Origin: a virus
IMG/VR virus record: IMGVR_UViG_3300046000_004279
Span: 46,889 to 110,888 of that record
Reading direction: 5' to 3' (one strand)
Length of the DNA: 64,000 bases
Both the position numbers and the translations under genes were made by a program. Under the pieces are notes generated by a model, which had not been told where the DNA came from, made no database searches, and saw only the letters and a list, made by a program, of their open reading frames with translations. Shown in pieces: positions 1,508-28,238 of this stretch; the first letter of the stretch is position 1, and every line of letters starts with the position of its first letter.

Positions 1508-2641
1508 ATGAAGTCCAATGTGATACAAGATGAAATCACTGCTGAAATCAGCAAGATTTTTGACTATAAGTTTGACGGGACAACTGAGTTTGTTCCACCG
1601 TCAATTGGAATGATTGATAAAGAGACAACACTGAAAGACTTCAACATTGGCTTGATAGTCGGACCATCGGGATCTGGCAAGAGTACGATGTTAAAGGATT
1701 TCGGTGTTGAAGTCGATCCTCAATGGGATCCTGATCTCTGCGTTGCATCTCATTTTGAAAATGTGAAACAAGCACAAGAACGTTTAGGTGCAGTTGGGTT
1801 CAATAGTATTCCAAGTTGGCTTCGCCCTTATCATGTTTTGTCTAACGGTGAACAGTTTCGCGCTCGTTTGGCTCGTCAACTAGATAACAATGTAGTGGTG
1901 GATGAGTTCACTTCTGTCATTGATCGTGATGTTGCTAAGAGTTGTTCAAATGCAATTCATCGTTACATCCATGCAAATGGTTTGAAGAACATCGTCTTTT
2001 CATCCTGTCATTATGACATTATTGAGTGGTTACGTCCAGATTGGGTATTTGATACTCAAACTGGTAAATTGACCACAAGGAGGTTTGAAAGGCCAGCCAT
2101 CGTTTTGGAAATCCTACCTTGTTCCACCAAAGCTTGGTCATTGTTCAGCGACCATCACTATCTTGACGGGGACATCAATAAAAGTTCACGATCTTGGATC
2201 GTCACGTGGAACAACCGACCTGTCGGCTTTCTTTCAAGTTTAGCGATGCCTAGTGGTAGTCTTAAGAACGCTTGGAGAGGTCACAGAACTGTCGTTCTAC
2301 CTGAGTTTCAAGGTTTGGGTATTGGTGCTAGAATGACCGAAGCTTTAGGTGAGATGCACATCAGAGAAGGCAAAAGGTTCTTCACAAAGACCGCACATCC
2401 GCGCTTAGGTGAGTATCGTAATGCGTCTGACCTTTGGAGATCGACAAGTAAAAACGGGATCTTGAGAAACGACTACAAACACATATCAACTGATGGTTTA
2501 CCAAACCCTCGTGGCGCTGGTTACAGTCGTAAGTTTACAAAAGAATATCTGGCTAAACACGCTGACAGAGTGTGTTACAGTCACGAATACATAGGAAATA
2601 CAACGGATCGTGGGCTGGATGGTAAAGCAGCAGTTTGCTAA
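1508..2641 (+). CDS. ABC-type ATPase fused to a GNAT acetyltransferase-like domain
   Basis: The 377-residue protein has an N-terminal ABC ATPase domain with Walker A GPSGSGKST (52-60), an ABC signature LSNGEQ (111-116) and Walker B VVVDEF (129-134). There are no membrane segments. The C-terminal half (about 195-350) carries a GNAT motif A, VVLPEFQGLGIGARM at 262-276, the acetyl-CoA binding region. The combination suggests an ATP-dependent acetyltransferase. Its place inside a tRNA cluster hints at an RNA or translation substrate, but that is inference. The last 12 codons and the stop lie inside the tRNA-Ser(GCU) gene, so the C-terminal tail TDRGLDGKAAVC is encoded by tRNA sequence. Start ATG follows AGGAATAG. 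Confidence 0.8.
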   Translation: MKSNVIQDEITAEISKIFDYKFDGTTEFVPPSIGMIDKETTLKDFNIGLIVGPSGSGKSTMLKDFGVEVDPQWDPDLCVASHFENVKQAQERLGAVGFNSIPSWLRPYHVLSNGEQFRARLARQLDNNVVVDEFTSVIDRDVAKSCSNAIHRYIHANGLKNIVFSSCHYDIIEWLRPDWVFDTQTGKLTTRRFERPAIVLEILPCSTKAWSLFSDHHYLDGDINKSSRSWIVTWNNRPVGFLSSLAMPSGSLKNAWRGHRTVVLPEFQGLGIGARMTEALGEMHIREGKRFFTKTAHPRLGEYRNASDLWRSTSKNGILRNDYKHISTDGLPNPRGAGYSRKFTKEYLAKHADRVCYSHEYIGNTTDRGLDGKAAVC

Positions 2642-2692
2642 ACTGTACTACCTGTAAGGGTAGAGTGGGTTCGATTCCCACACGATCCGCCA
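2605..2692 (+). tRNA. tRNA-Ser (anticodon GCU), overlapping the upstream CDS
   Basis: The perfect acceptor GGATCGT/ACGATCC (2605-2611/2682-2688), anticodon loop TTGCTAA with GCT at 2637-2639, a class II variable arm CTACC/GGGTAG, T arm GTGGG/CCCAC, discriminator G and encoded CCA are all present. Its first 37 nt overlap the end of the ABC-GNAT gene. The TAA stop of that gene (2639-2641) is made by the last anticodon base and the following two A residues. Confidence 0.95.
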
Positions 2693-2700
2693 TATAAATA
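2693..2700 (+). promoter_or_regulatory. T4-type late promoter box
   Basis: TATAAATA is an exact match to the T4 late promoter consensus used by gp55-RNA polymerase with gp33 and the sliding clamp. It directly follows tRNA-Ser(GCU). Transcription would start near the ATG at 2706. A chance match in AT-rich DNA cannot be excluded. Confidence 0.5.
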
Positions 2701-2705
2701 ATCTC

Positions 2706-2858
2706 ATGTTCAAAAAGATTTGGTCCATTCTCTTGCCATTGACTGTCATAGTTAACTTTGGTTTAGCTATCAGTAACTTAATATCCACTAGATCAAACCA
2801 TTTTATGTTGATCGACCTATTGACTTTACATCAATCAAGCACTATATTAAGTAAGTAG
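2706..2858 (+). CDS. possible small membrane peptide
   Basis: A 50-codon open frame starts with MFKKIWSILLPLTVIVNF: two lysines followed by a hydrophobic stretch, like a single transmembrane segment or signal anchor. There is no Shine-Dalgarno site. The frame lies 6 nt after a late promoter box, so any late message would be nearly leaderless. Its 3' end overlaps the promoter of the next gene. It may be real or a chance frame; I do not recognise it. Confidence 0.3.
   Translation: MFKKIWSILLPLTVIVNFGLAISNLISTRSNHFMLIDLLTLHQSSTILSK
2820..2848 (+). promoter_or_regulatory. sigma70-type promoter
   Basis: TTGACT (2820-2825), a 17-bp spacer and TATATT (2843-2848) lie 20 nt upstream of the gene at 2869. 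The same TTGACT-17-TATATT pattern recurs before 3468 and 23149. Confidence 0.75.
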
Positions 2859-2868
2859 AGACAGAGAG

Positions 2869-3399
2869 ATGACCATGACAAACTTCAATTCTTTTGTGAC
2901 AAACTTTTCGGAGAGTGCATCGATTGAAAAATCTATGCAAGAAAAGATCTCCAAGGCATTTGCCGAATTGAATGCTAAGTTGATCAAATCTGATCAAGAG
3001 TGGGCCAAGAAAAAGATCGAAGGGTTCCAAGACCACATGAAAAAATGGGATGCAGATCACACCAAATACGCCGATTACAAACTTCGTGGTCCTGAAGTTA
3101 TCAAATATTGGGGCAGTGAAGCGATGATGAAACTGATTGCGAGTCGTGGTCTTCAAGGCGGTCTTGATAACATGATGAAAAACACTCATGCTCTTATCGC
3201 AAAAAGAGACAATCAGATTGTCGCGGCTCTACGTAAGAATAAGATCGACGGCATTCCCGATTTTGAACTGAAACACAATAGTGATGGTTACGAAGGCAGT
3301 TTCAAAGTTGGTGATCACAATGTTAACATCCGCACAATCGTTGCTGGTGGGTACAACATTCAAAGAATGCACATGCGAACGTTAATAAAAGTACAGTAA
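2869..3399 (+). CDS. hypothetical phage protein
   Basis: The 176-residue protein is not recognised. The first half is charged and probably helical, rich in K, E and A (for example EKSMQEKISKAFAELNAKL). The C-terminal third looks beta-rich (GYEGSFKVGDHNVNIRTIVAGG). No cysteine motif, signal peptide or membrane segment is seen. Two ATGs lie at 2869 and 2875; AGAGAG just upstream favours either. It is a single gene behind its own early-type promoter, with another such promoter following it, which fits a small early accessory gene. Confidence 0.75.
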   Translation: MTMTNFNSFVTNFSESASIEKSMQEKISKAFAELNAKLIKSDQEWAKKKIEGFQDHMKKWDADHTKYADYKLRGPEVIKYWGSEAMMKLIASRGLQGGLDNMMKNTHALIAKRDNQIVAALRKNKIDGIPDFELKHNSDGYEGSFKVGDHNVNIRTIVAGGYNIQRMHMRTLIKVQ

Positions 3400-3413
3400 A
3401 GCTAAAATAACTC

Positions 3414-3442
3414 TTGACTCTTGCTTAGAGATGCACTATATT
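3414..3442 (+). promoter_or_regulatory. sigma70-type promoter
   Basis: TTGACT (3414-3419), a 17-bp spacer and TATATT (3437-3442) precede the gene at 3468, which has an AAAGAGGA ribosome site. Confidence 0.78.
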
Positions 3443-3467
3443 GATACTGTAGTAAAGAGGAAAACAC

Positions 3468-3878
3468 ATGTACACGTTCGACGAATCAATTGTTTCTGAT
3501 CTGCACAAAGACACTTACGGCTTCCGCCCTGACAGTGCTTTCTGGTCTAACTGGAATGTCTCCTCAGATGCTGGCAAACAGTACATCTGGGATTGTCTGC
3601 TCGAAGCTTTCGCCCACACCATTGAGATTAATGCTAACGAGGATATCGCTGCGATCAATGCTTTCGAGCTTGAGATTGCAAACACGATTGATCTTGGTGC
3701 TACTTCGCGTGAAGTCGCTATTCGTTGGATCATTGAGTCGATGGGTCTGACTGAGACCGATTTGGTGTACGGTGGCAGTTATGTCTGTTTCTTGAAGAAA
3801 CTACCGTATTCAATGGCTCCGTTGTTTGATAACGCGATTCGTGATCTTGAAAGTAACTTCATCAAAGAGGATGCATAA
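3468..3878 (+). CDS. hypothetical phage protein
   Basis: The acidic 136-residue protein has no recognisable catalytic motif. Aromatic residues and helices predominate (FWSNWNVSSDAGKQYIWDCLLEA is close to the N-terminus in shortened form FWSNWN...IWDCLLEA). A strong ribosome site (AAAGAGGAAAACAC) precedes the ATG. Its TAA shares its last base with the ATG of the next gene, so the two are likely translationally coupled. Function is unknown. Confidence 0.78.
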   Translation: MYTFDESIVSDLHKDTYGFRPDSAFWSNWNVSSDAGKQYIWDCLLEAFAHTIEINANEDIAAINAFELEIANTIDLGATSREVAIRWIIESMGLTETDLVYGGSYVCFLKKLPYSMAPLFDNAIRDLESNFIKEDA

Positions 3879-24977: not shown

Positions 24978-26765
24978 TTATCCTCGTGAACCGTATCCGA
25001 GGACATACAGTCGCTGCAAATCGCGGCGTGGGTCGTGGGCGCTAGGTCTATCCCCTTGGCCAAGATTAATAGTAGTATCGCCGCCTTTGTGGATAGTAGT
25101 ATTACCATTGTTTGCAACTACACCGCCACTCAAAGCACTACGTTGTGAACTGGTGAGACTACTTTGTGCTTGTTGTAAATTCTGACCTGTCGTTTTTGGA
25201 ACTGTAGTAATTGGTGGTTCATATGAAACCCATTCGTCCCCCTTGCCTCTGCCAAGAGATTTCCAATATCCTTTCTGGCCATCCTCGCCTGGCGGTGGAT
25301 TCGCAAGCGCTGATCCTTGTGGCGCTTGGGGTGGTGGTGCGGGTTGGCGAGGCAATCCCAAGTCTACATCTAAACCAAAGTATTCTGCCAAACCGCCAAA
25401 TTTATTTTTAATCCAATCTACCAATGGTCCAATCGAGTTATTCCAAATCCATGCTCCTAAGTCGCCACCGTACCCTAAAGCGTCATTCCACGCGGTGGAA
25501 ATCCATGCTGACAAATCCGGAAATGTGTTCTCAAACCAAGTCCACAATGGTTTAACAGCAATGTTGTATATCCACTCGCCAATGGTTTTGTACACACCGC
25601 TGGTGAGTTTAATATATGCCCAAAACAAATCGCTTAGTGCCTTTCCAGGATCTGTGAACAATTCTTCAACCCACTTTACCGCACCTTGAACAAGACCATA
25701 TATCCCGCCAATCAGGTCGTTGATAATTGTTTCAAAACTCCAACTTTGTAGCCACGTTGCAGCTTCTTTAAATCCAAGTTTTTCCAATGCCCATGCAACA
25801 ATACTTTTTAACAAGTCAAGAGGTGCACCAACAAAGTCACCAATAAACGCACCAATTCCTGCAACGAACTTATCCAGGAAAGACCCTTCAGTATTCATAA
25901 AGGCCATTACACCATCATAAGCTGAAAACAAGAATCCAATTGGTTTTAAGATCCTAAGTGCAAATCTAGCAAACTTACCAATGTTGGCCGCACCTCCAGA
26001 AATACCCATAACACTGGATAAGAATCCGAGCATCTTTGCCCCTGATCCTGTCATCCAACCACTAATTCCTTGACCAATTGATATAAATGGATTAATAATA
26101 ACTGACATTAACTTGCCAGCTTTAGATACAATCCTACCAATCTTACCACCATCTAAACCAACACCAAAGGATCTAGTAACATTTAAACGCAACAGATCAA
26201 ATGCTTCTGATATCATTACTGCTGTTGATTTAAGTTCTTTACCTGTAAACCTACCAAGAGCATCTTTTGCCATTCTACCGGTTTGTGGATTAATACCAAA
26301 CCGTTGAAGAATTCCACGAGCTATGTTATCAAATCCGCTTGCAAACTTTAACTTAAAATTGTCGGCTAATTTACCAACGCTGGATACAAGACTAGATGCT
26401 AGCTTTCTAATTACAGGAACTTCCCAACCTCTTAGACCCGCAATCGCAAGCGGCAGGGCAGCCAATACTGGCAACAAGTAATCACCAATATTAAATCCAG
26501 CACTCGCAGATTGACCCGCTTGCTGGCCAGATTCAAAACTCTTTGCAAATTTAGACTTGTTACGCGCTTCACTGGCAGTTTCAAGAGAATCCGTATTTAA
26601 TCGTTCCGCTTTCTTTTGATCAAAGAACATAGTAAAGGATTTGTCAATCGAATCCGTCAGCTTTTTAACTGCTGATGTTGTTTCGTTAACATTTTTGCTA
26701 GTCAGATCAGAAGACTTCTGATTGTTCTTTAACTGACTAACAATATCTTGTAGCGTGGCCGCCAT
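24978..26765 (-). CDS. 29: gp29-like tape measure / baseplate hub protein
   Basis: The 595-residue protein has the size of T4 gp29 (590), which sets tail length and sits in the baseplate hub. The N-terminal 90 residues are charged and helical. The middle is long, glycine-rich and hydrophobic, with several membrane-like helices (for example LPVLAALPLAIAGL and LMSVIINPFISIG). A Pro/Gln-rich segment and a C-terminal Thr/Asn/Gly-rich tail follow. Its ATG overlaps the stop of the gp26 frameshift extension (TAATG), the usual chaperone-tape measure order. No peptidase motif is seen. Confidence 0.8.
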   Translation of the reverse strand: MAATLQDIVSQLKNNQKSSDLTSKNVNETTSAVKKLTDSIDKSFTMFFDQKKAERLNTDSLETASEARNKSKFAKSFESGQQAGQSASAGFNIGDYLLPVLAALPLAIAGLRGWEVPVIRKLASSLVSSVGKLADNFKLKFASGFDNIARGILQRFGINPQTGRMAKDALGRFTGKELKSTAVMISEAFDLLRLNVTRSFGVGLDGGKIGRIVSKAGKLMSVIINPFISIGQGISGWMTGSGAKMLGFLSSVMGISGGAANIGKFARFALRILKPIGFLFSAYDGVMAFMNTEGSFLDKFVAGIGAFIGDFVGAPLDLLKSIVAWALEKLGFKEAATWLQSWSFETIINDLIGGIYGLVQGAVKWVEELFTDPGKALSDLFWAYIKLTSGVYKTIGEWIYNIAVKPLWTWFENTFPDLSAWISTAWNDALGYGGDLGAWIWNNSIGPLVDWIKNKFGGLAEYFGLDVDLGLPRQPAPPPQAPQGSALANPPPGEDGQKGYWKSLGRGKGDEWVSYEPPITTVPKTTGQNLQQAQSSLTSSQRSALSGGVVANNGNTTIHKGGDTTINLGQGDRPSAHDPRRDLQRLYVLGYGSRG

Positions 26766-26947
26766 TATTGTGATCCTTTATTATGTTCCTGTTGCTCTTT
26801 AATCCATTGCATCAGCAGAGTAACGTAAACTTCTTTTTCCCATGGTATCAATCCGTCTATCTCATCTAACGAAAAATTATGATCGCGCATTAATCTAAAG
26901 TTACTAGTATAATAATTAGATAGGTTTTCGTGAGATAGACTTATTAA
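26765..26947 (-). CDS. gp26 -1 frameshift extension (tail assembly chaperone C-terminal part)
   Basis: This frame is open for 60 codons directly after gp26, in the -1 frame. It reads on from the poly-T at the gp26 stop: LISLSHENLSNYYTSNFRL, then HNFSLDEIDGLIPWEKEVY and VTLLMQWIKEQQE. The IPWEKEVYVTLLM phrase resembles the downstream part of tail assembly chaperones in many contractile and long-tailed phages. If not made by frameshifting, an internal ATG at 26890 would give 41 residues, but no ribosome site is obvious. It ends on the tape-measure ATG. The product would be a gp26 fusion of 296 residues. Confidence 0.7.
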   Translation of the reverse strand, partial: LISLSHENLSNYYTSNFRLMRDHNFSLDEIDGLIPWEKEVYVTLLMQWIKEQQEHNKGSQ

Positions 26948-27654
26948 AAAAAATTCTGCATACCTTCAATTGTGTAGGTATTGGCATGTCGGCATTTAAC
27001 GCAATTAAAATGAACTTCGTGGGTCATCTTGGGAATTGTGTCAACGAATGATCTAATCTTTTGTAGTTGATCACCTGTCATTGATTCAATAAATTCTTCA
27101 ATATCTTTATGACTAACATCTTTTAAATCAATCCGTTCTTCGGCAGTATGAATAGCTTTCATTACTGTCATAATCATCTCAAATGTCTGTTCTGTTTGAG
27201 ATGTTGAGTTGGTCAGTTTTTTATTAGAAGCCATTGCACCAAAATGTGGATACGACATCTCAAGTGTAATATCATCTGTTAATTTTATCATGAAATCTGT
27301 TTTTGGAACAGTGATCTCAATGGATTGTAGATCAACCGAAACTTTGTTAGTATGTTCACATTCTGAACAGTTAATACCAATATCGCTTGTCTCGCCAACA
27401 GACTTTGAACGAATCTTGACAAACATGTATTCAATATCAAATGTCGTTAAACTCTTTGGATCAATAGTGTCATCAACACATGCTACAATAGTATCTAACA
27501 CAGCGTTCAGTGCTTGACCAGTATCCTTTGTTTCCATAGCAAGCAAAAGAATCTTTTCCTCTTTTACAAGATATGGTCGGAACTTGACCGTTTTGTTTGT
27601 AGACGGAATAACCAAATCATATTTTGGAGTATTATTTAACTTAGGTAGTGCCAT
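26944..27654 (-). CDS. 26: gp26-like baseplate hub / T4_baseplate family protein
   Basis: The 236-residue protein matches the T4_baseplate family (gp26): MALPKLNNTPKYDLVIPST..., KTVKFRPYLVKEEKILLLA, and two zinc-type pairs, CSECEHTN and CVKCRHANT, near residues 105-115 and 218-223. T4 gp26 is a hub assembly protein. The last codons AAT TTT TTT TAA form a canonical slippery heptamer T TTT TTT abutting the stop, followed by an open -1 frame, as in tail assembly chaperones. AAGGATG lies before the ATG. Confidence 0.88.
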   Translation of the reverse strand: MALPKLNNTPKYDLVIPSTNKTVKFRPYLVKEEKILLLAMETKDTGQALNAVLDTIVACVDDTIDPKSLTTFDIEYMFVKIRSKSVGETSDIGINCSECEHTNKVSVDLQSIEITVPKTDFMIKLTDDITLEMSYPHFGAMASNKKLTNSTSQTEQTFEMIMTVMKAIHTAEERIDLKDVSHKDIEEFIESMTGDQLQKIRSFVDTIPKMTHEVHFNCVKCRHANTYTIEGMQNFF

Positions 27655-27674: not shown

Positions 27675-28238
27675 TCAAGCCATTTTCCATTTACGATAAG
27701 AAAGCTGCACAAGCAGTTCTACTGTCGCATTTTCAGAGGCATCAGATAATTCAATTGCGGTTACAGTTGTGGGGAACGCTTCATAAAGTTCACAACTATA
27801 CATGATTTTGTCTTTAGATATCAAATCAATATCAAATATTCTATCACTGTATATTGGTAGACCTATACCGCGTTTTAATTGATGGATCTTTACGGTTTTT
27901 GCGTATTCGTTAAGATATCCAATTTCATGAGTGTTTGGATCAATTGCAAGAGCCTGCCATGACTCAAAATATGTACGGATCTTATAATCGTTCATTACAT
28001 GAAAAGACAGACTAACATCGTCACTAATAGAACTGTAAGCTACCTTTTGATCAATTGCTCCAATGACTCTGTTGTTGGTCATTACTTGCCGACCAGGGAC
28101 ATTAACAGCTTTACACAACAGATCAAGATCACGAGTTGATATTCCGTTGATTGATGGCAATTCAACTCTGAAGTAGTTGGCCATTGCTATGCCACCACTA
28201 TTTGATATCAAACCTTTTAACTCTTCAATACTGGCCAT
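27675..28238 (-). CDS. tail-tube-fold baseplate protein (gp19/gp54-like)
   Basis: The 187-residue protein resembles the T4 gp19 tail-tube family. It opens with a MANYFRVELPSI strand and then CKAVNVPGRQV. DVSLSFHVMNDYKIRTYFESWQ is the typical W-Q segment, and ELYEAFPTTVTAIELSD and VELLVQLSYRKW follow. It lies between gp26 and the gp4 group rather than next to a sheath gene. It may therefore be the tail-tube initiator (gp54-like) or a tube paralogue rather than the main gp19. Its ATG shares bases with the upstream gene's end. Confidence 0.72.
   Translation of the reverse strand: MASIEELKGLISNSGGIAMANYFRVELPSINGISTRDLDLLCKAVNVPGRQVMTNNRVIGAIDQKVAYSSISDDVSLSFHVMNDYKIRTYFESWQALAIDPNTHEIGYLNEYAKTVKIHQLKRGIGLPIYSDRIFDIDLISKDKIMYSCELYEAFPTTVTAIELSDASENATVELLVQLSYRKWKMA

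Follow-up and report, generated by a model that had tools for sequence, protein, structure and literature searches.

Probable −1 programmed ribosomal frameshifting in a putative T4-like tail assembly chaperone gene, with a predicted long-range mRNA helix past the slip site

The stretch of DNA analyzed here (the window, 64,000 nucleotides) belongs to a virus record of 110,888 bases. On its minus strand, a gp26-like open reading frame (27654..26944) encodes a protein of 236 amino acids, the short form of a putative tail assembly chaperone. The protein matches PF12322 (E 2.7e-60, residues 10-236) and phrog_150 (E 5.3e-65), and its top match among annotated phages is to C48C1, filed under Kyanoviridae (47% identity). 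As had been read in the original prediction, the frame ends in AAT TTT TTT TAA. The slippery heptamer T TTT TTT (26953..26947, minus strand) lies within the window's single T8 run (26946-26953) and abuts the 0-frame stop codon TAA (26946..26944, minus strand), which a second TAA adjoins (26943-26941). In the −1 frame, a gp51-like extension of phrog_634 type (26765..26947, minus strand) is open for 60 codons plus a stop, the length originally given, and translates as LISLSHENLSNYYTSNFRLMRDHNFSLDEIDGLIPWEKEVYVTLLMQWIKEQQEHNKGSQ; the phrog_634 match lies on a 41-amino-acid open reading frame of the extension (E 2.4e-14). The extension also ends on the ATG of the next gene, as predicted, its stop codon TAA (26767..26765) sharing one base with the ATG at 26765. 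This 595-amino-acid open reading frame (24978..26765, minus strand), directly 3' of the extension, is a putative tape-measure protein. The label is weakly supported, the match to phrog_58 (tape measure) being weak (E 0.00097) and a BLASTP comparison with T4 gp29 giving no meaningful match. On the 5' side of gp26 the identity of the neighbor is clear, a tail tube gene (27675..28238, minus strand; phrog_45 tail tube, E 3e-33).

T runs are strongly under-represented across the window (1-64000). The T8 run at the slip site has no second copy on either strand, where dinucleotide shuffles predict 12.85, and nine T7 runs compare with 39.4 expected. Within a greedy set of 65 open reading frames, five in-phase T TTT TTN heptamers were counted against 13.67 expected, a number as low being reached in 1 of 200 synonymous shuffles. 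Since T8 runs and T heptamers are scarcer than expected, such runs are avoided in the window, though one occupies the gp26 junction.

Relatives were gathered by similarity to the gp26 protein, independently of the slip site, and named phages were added. A closed gp26-family reading frame was present in 271 of 273 sources; the two without one were dropped before counting. A scan for an in-phase T TTT TTN near the gp26 stop found the heptamer at 263 of the 271 loci, the stop following at 0 codons in 53, at one codon in 209 and at three codons in one, and two more heptamers (L095, L196) were recognized on inspection. A gp51-like extension was recognized in the −1 frame of 259 of the 271 loci. The four heptamer loci without a recognized extension comprise two that run off the contig, one whose −1 frame is open though diverged, and the Synechococcus phage S-SCSM1. 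Alignment of homologues, a check proposed with the original prediction, thus finds the slippery run and the −1 extension, as well as its location ahead of the putative tape-measure gene, kept in hundreds of relatives. On the sequence evidence, conservation of the heptamer is far beyond chance. When the 263 heptamer loci were grouped at 70% identity, slippery codons were chosen in all 81 resulting clusters, the chance of which is about 1e-28 given codon use if kinship is ignored.

Eight of the 271 loci had no heptamer in the scan (T4, 44RR, EC-F2, L096, L101, L103, L095 and L196) and were excluded from the statistics on codon choice, start codons, dN/dS, Shine-Dalgarno-like pairing and the helix. 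Three of them (L096, L101, L103), from Vibrio phages 1.255.O and D495 and Pseudomonas phage Cygsa01, carry shorter U UUY variants. In T4, 44RR and EC-F2, genes 26 and 51 are separate. A missing run together with a separate start for the downstream frame, named beforehand as the pattern that would speak against a frameshift, does occur, but only in these three two-gene phages. Within the Straboviridae, the KVP40-like phi-pp2 and Aeromonas phage AsFcp_2 keep the frameshift site; in AsFcp_2 the gp51 frame is there, unannotated (L094 2217-2384).

Some relatives show arrangements of their own. In the Erwinia jumbo phage Hallingskeid (L095 2259-2304) the −1 frame is open and an in-phase T TTT TTC precedes the gp26 stop by 11 codons, a spacing that contrasts with the 0-1 codon seen elsewhere. 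In Enterobacter phage EC-F2 (L102 2501-3794) a short open reading frame that matches the gp26 profile (3237-3794) comes after gp51 (2501-3244) in the same orientation, unlike the situation in T4 and 44RR, where genes 26 and 51 diverge. An extra small open reading frame between gp51 and the next large gene was observed in Cr30, DLP6 and two Rhizobium phages (L086 1680-1928, L088 1682-2128, L089 1686-2096, L104 2369-2794).

T4 gp26 and T4 gp51 both match PF12322, and the C-terminus of T4 gp51 also matches phrog_634. A profile of the fusion aligned with the entire T4 gp51, junction included (E 6e-29), and with T4 gp26 as far as the junction (E 7e-24). The T4 equivalents, originally described as usually treated as separate genes, are thus by alignment the short form (gp26) and the fused form (gp51). 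According to an excerpt of PMC3004832, T4 gp51 is required for assembly and is not in the particle.

An AlphaFold2 model of the window gp26 (pLDDT 86.1, pTM 0.78) was compared with known structures. The N-terminal domain of about 90 residues resembled 3FGX (Z 8.2) and 2OB9, the tail assembly chaperone of HK97 (Z 7.6 over 85 residues), the next-best row scoring Z 4.4, and a Foldseek match of the model (prob 0.96, E 0.27) was not significant. The modeled fold supports chaperone membership without proving it. A search of PDB sequences with the gp26 profile returned nothing at E<=1. Of 22 members of the gp26 family, one was matched by the Pfam chaperone models (PF06896, E 0.027), under the curated cut-off, and gp26 was therefore not filed in the Pfam Phage_TAC families. 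Residues C96, C99, C218 and C221 of gp26 form two CxxC pairs that could make up a zinc ribbon, and the model gave weak structural matches to zinc-binding proteins (Z about 2.4).

Folding of the RNA 3' of the slip site, also proposed as a check, predicted a 10-bp long-range helix in the window. Its 5' arm GTCTATCTCA (26931..26940, minus strand) starts 6 nt past the heptamer, within the 5-9 nt spacing of dnaX-type stimulators, and pairs with the 3' arm TGAGATAGAC (26855..26864, minus strand), 26940-26931 facing 26864-26855. Beyond a 5-nt bulge the helix may extend inward through CGAAAA (26930-26925) and TTTTCG (26875-26870, minus strand), an extension kept in some, not all, close relatives. The 65-nt downstream fold of the window is ordinary (z -0.4; +0.5 against synonymous shuffles). 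The long-range helix was spotted in the 126-nt fold (z -0.98) and tested afterwards against synonymous shuffles, giving p 0.01. None of its 20 positions varies in eight close relatives, compared with 42 of 163 positions outside (p 0.004).

Across the family, helix tests covered 79 of the 81 clusters, those with a recognized −1 extension (which leaves out S-SCSM1). Downstream pairing exceeded synonymous shuffles at p<=0.05 in 44 of the 79, and in 21 of 32 at 50% clustering; in the pairing controls the same threshold was reached by 8.0% of 324 and 7.6% of 79. True pairs of arms were more stable than swapped ones in 67 clusters (-10.71 vs -8.87, 0 of 5000 permutations). Thirty-five of the 67 PW-type clusters carry an LSH motif, and these were aligned, the window not being among them. 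In the LSH-type clusters the same 5' position has a different partner, the PWERE codons about 85 nt on. Pairing is seen in 80.9% of cells, and in 42.2 to 65.3% if the partner is shifted by 1 to 3 columns. Double changes affected 24 cells of this helix, compared with 11.8 in shuffles.

The frameshift could be real and the helix nevertheless a by-product of codon or protein constraint that stimulates nothing, a reading that we take to be possible but not the one we favor. Most invariant pairs do fall at positions fixed by the protein, and 35 of the 79 clusters miss p<=0.05. Tree-aware covariation is likewise too sparse for significance, 2.6 of 3 Leu-Glu pairs running in the expected direction and 0.0 in the opposite one, and the Arg pair giving 1.0 vs 0.1 of 2. 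A third candidate, a His-Pro pair, was dropped because its tree-aware pairs run in the opposite direction. Against a by-product, synonymous shuffles hold the proteins constant and excess pairing nevertheless remains at the site, while no such excess is seen 18 codons further on or in gp26. Two LSH-type pairs covary at synonymous positions (UA 16/CG 10 and CG 17/UA 11), RNAalifold recovers the PWERE helix of these clusters unprompted, and clades fill one and the same place with different pairings.

Other candidate stimulatory signals vary between clades. In the S-PM2 clade a local hairpin is accompanied by a strong Shine-Dalgarno-like sequence. The evidence for the hairpin is mainly conservation, 88% of cells being paired and one pair showing double changes, in an alignment of 14 of the 33 loci of the group from which loci with a different hairpin were left out. 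Upstream Shine-Dalgarno-like pairing averaged -6.07 over the 81 clusters, stronger than the -5.13 from synonymous codons; the match in the window is weak (-4.0).

We lean towards a conserved stimulator, in which T4-like phages that keep the frameshift would carry an mRNA element immediately beyond the slip site. The 5' arm, lying in the first gp51 codons, would pair with codons deeper in the gp51 part, at a distance of 66 nt (window phage) to about 85 nt, or in the S-PM2 clade would form a local hairpin. Clades would have swapped the partner (PWERE codons, DEID codons, local hairpin) while the 5' arm kept its place and spacing. Such an element would tune the ratio of short to long product, and the T4 lineage would have dispensed with it by splitting genes 26 and 51. 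In the parts of the literature that were searched, T4-like chaperone genes are nowhere credited with an RNA stimulator, and one may still be in print; the downstream RNA stimulator may be new.

Gp51 might instead be a separate small protein, made from its own start or by termination-reinitiation at the gp26 stop, with the T run incidental. Fourteen of the 81 clusters have an ATG no more than 8 codons from the site, distant members show TAATG or TGATG at the gp26 stop, and public records annotate gp51 as a gene of its own, all of which would fit this. So would S-SCSM1 (L091 1485-1525), which retains the heptamer and has gp51 in the +1 frame after its own ATG; that arrangement reflects either a true split of the pair or a single-base error in the database entry. 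However, between the upstream −1 stop and 8 codons beyond the slip site, 56 of the 81 clusters have no ATG, GTG or TTG able to serve the extension (the other 25 divide into the 14 with an early ATG, six with an early GTG or TTG and five with an upstream start). The first ATG of the extension is codon 20-21 in 49 of the 81, within a region subject to purifying selection: the −1 frame has a dN/dS of 0.15 directly after the slip site, whereas the two remaining frames have 0.91 and 1.41 (84 pairs). These ratios indicate that the extension is under selection as protein from the slip site onward. As synonymous choice keeps the heptamer and T4 gp51 is itself the fused form, a separate gp51 is very improbable.

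The least probable reading is that RNA polymerase slips on the T run and adds a base to the mRNA, so that ordinary translation yields the fusion: it could draw on the T8 of the window, the only one in 64 kb, but the run is just 6 T long in 54 of the 81 clusters (203 of the 263 loci), with 7 in 8 and 8 in 19, which argues against polymerase slippage, bacterial slippage runs being put at 9 in the relevant passage of a review (PMC5009743), and the downstream pairing fits a ribosome.

We therefore consider a tail assembly chaperone gene with a −1 programmed ribosomal frameshift very probable, judging from comparative sequence data. The frameshift originally predicted in gp26 is supported by the conservation of heptamer and extension, by the lack of starts for the extension and by selection on its protein. 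That its product is a tail assembly chaperone fusion agrees in part: T4 gp51 aligns as the fused form, and for the chaperone function itself we infer a role like that of the lambda proteins. Most ribosomes would halt at the TAA and release the 236-amino-acid short form. Presumably a minority, with tRNA-Phe on U UUU UUU, would slip back one base and read 60 codons, giving a gp26-gp51 fusion of 296 amino acids. Slippage may be increased by the mRNA helix, which begins 6 nt beyond the slip site, and perhaps also by the adjacent stop codon. On the model described for lambda G/GT, the N-terminal part common to both products would attach to the tape measure and the extension would bring in tail-tube subunits, and both products would be absent from the virion.

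Frameshifting in T4-like chaperones appears to have been published already. Poly-T frameshift signals are cited as known in these genes in a passage of PMC12846349, and some T4-like phages are described in an extract of PMC10885494 as using a short and a fused gene instead; both cite Vladimirov, Gautam and Davidson 2022 (Virology 566:9-15). An older review states that the frameshift is widely conserved, T4 excepted (PMC5009743). Within T4-like tail assembly chaperones, the PF12322 family and a short and a long form are common to T4 and the window phage; T4 has two separate genes, whereas the window phage has a single gene with a slip site. Lambda G/GT, as outlined in PMC5009743, resembles the present locus in its two overlapping frames, with a −1 shift (probable at the present locus) towards the end of the first. 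In lambda the pair lies between tail tube and tape measure, here between a tail tube gene and a putative tape-measure gene. It differs in that no sequence kinship was found with the Pfam chaperone models, and in that the family here has U UUU UUN with the stop 0 or 1 codon on in 262 of 263 loci and, in the window phage, a predicted downstream mRNA helix. The chaperones of the Vandenendeviridae and Andersonviridae (phage Adele) shift −1 at a poly-T before the tape measure according to PMC12846349, similar to what is proposed for the present locus; the Adele motif is given there as GTTTTT, and the families differ from that of the window phage.

E. coli dnaX and IS elements combine a Shine-Dalgarno-like sequence 5' and a structure 3' of the slip site in the part of PMC5009743 that treats them, a likeness that is clearest in the S-PM2 clade. 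Signals of the IS3411 type pair 44-104 nt downstream (same review), and the pairing predicted here is long-range as well. The slip codons of dnaX are Lys and those of the window Phe. In further contrast to dnaX, the Shine-Dalgarno-like match of the window is weak, and the predicted structure is a simple long-range helix rather than a demonstrated pseudoknot.

In cyanophages and marine vibriophages, gp51 has been remarked to be short of about 200 N-terminal residues (a passage of PMC3037559). This gp51 would look stump-like because the missing part is gp26, joined to it via the frameshift; public records would accordingly split one long protein in two, or miss gp51. The probable frameshift described here adds a member to the known frameshifts of T4-like chaperones. 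Through it, the hub assembly factors of T4, gp26 and gp51, are connected with the chaperone system found in other tailed phages. Should the helix act in the way proposed, it would be a directly testable element that sets the ratio of short to long product in a large group of marine phages.
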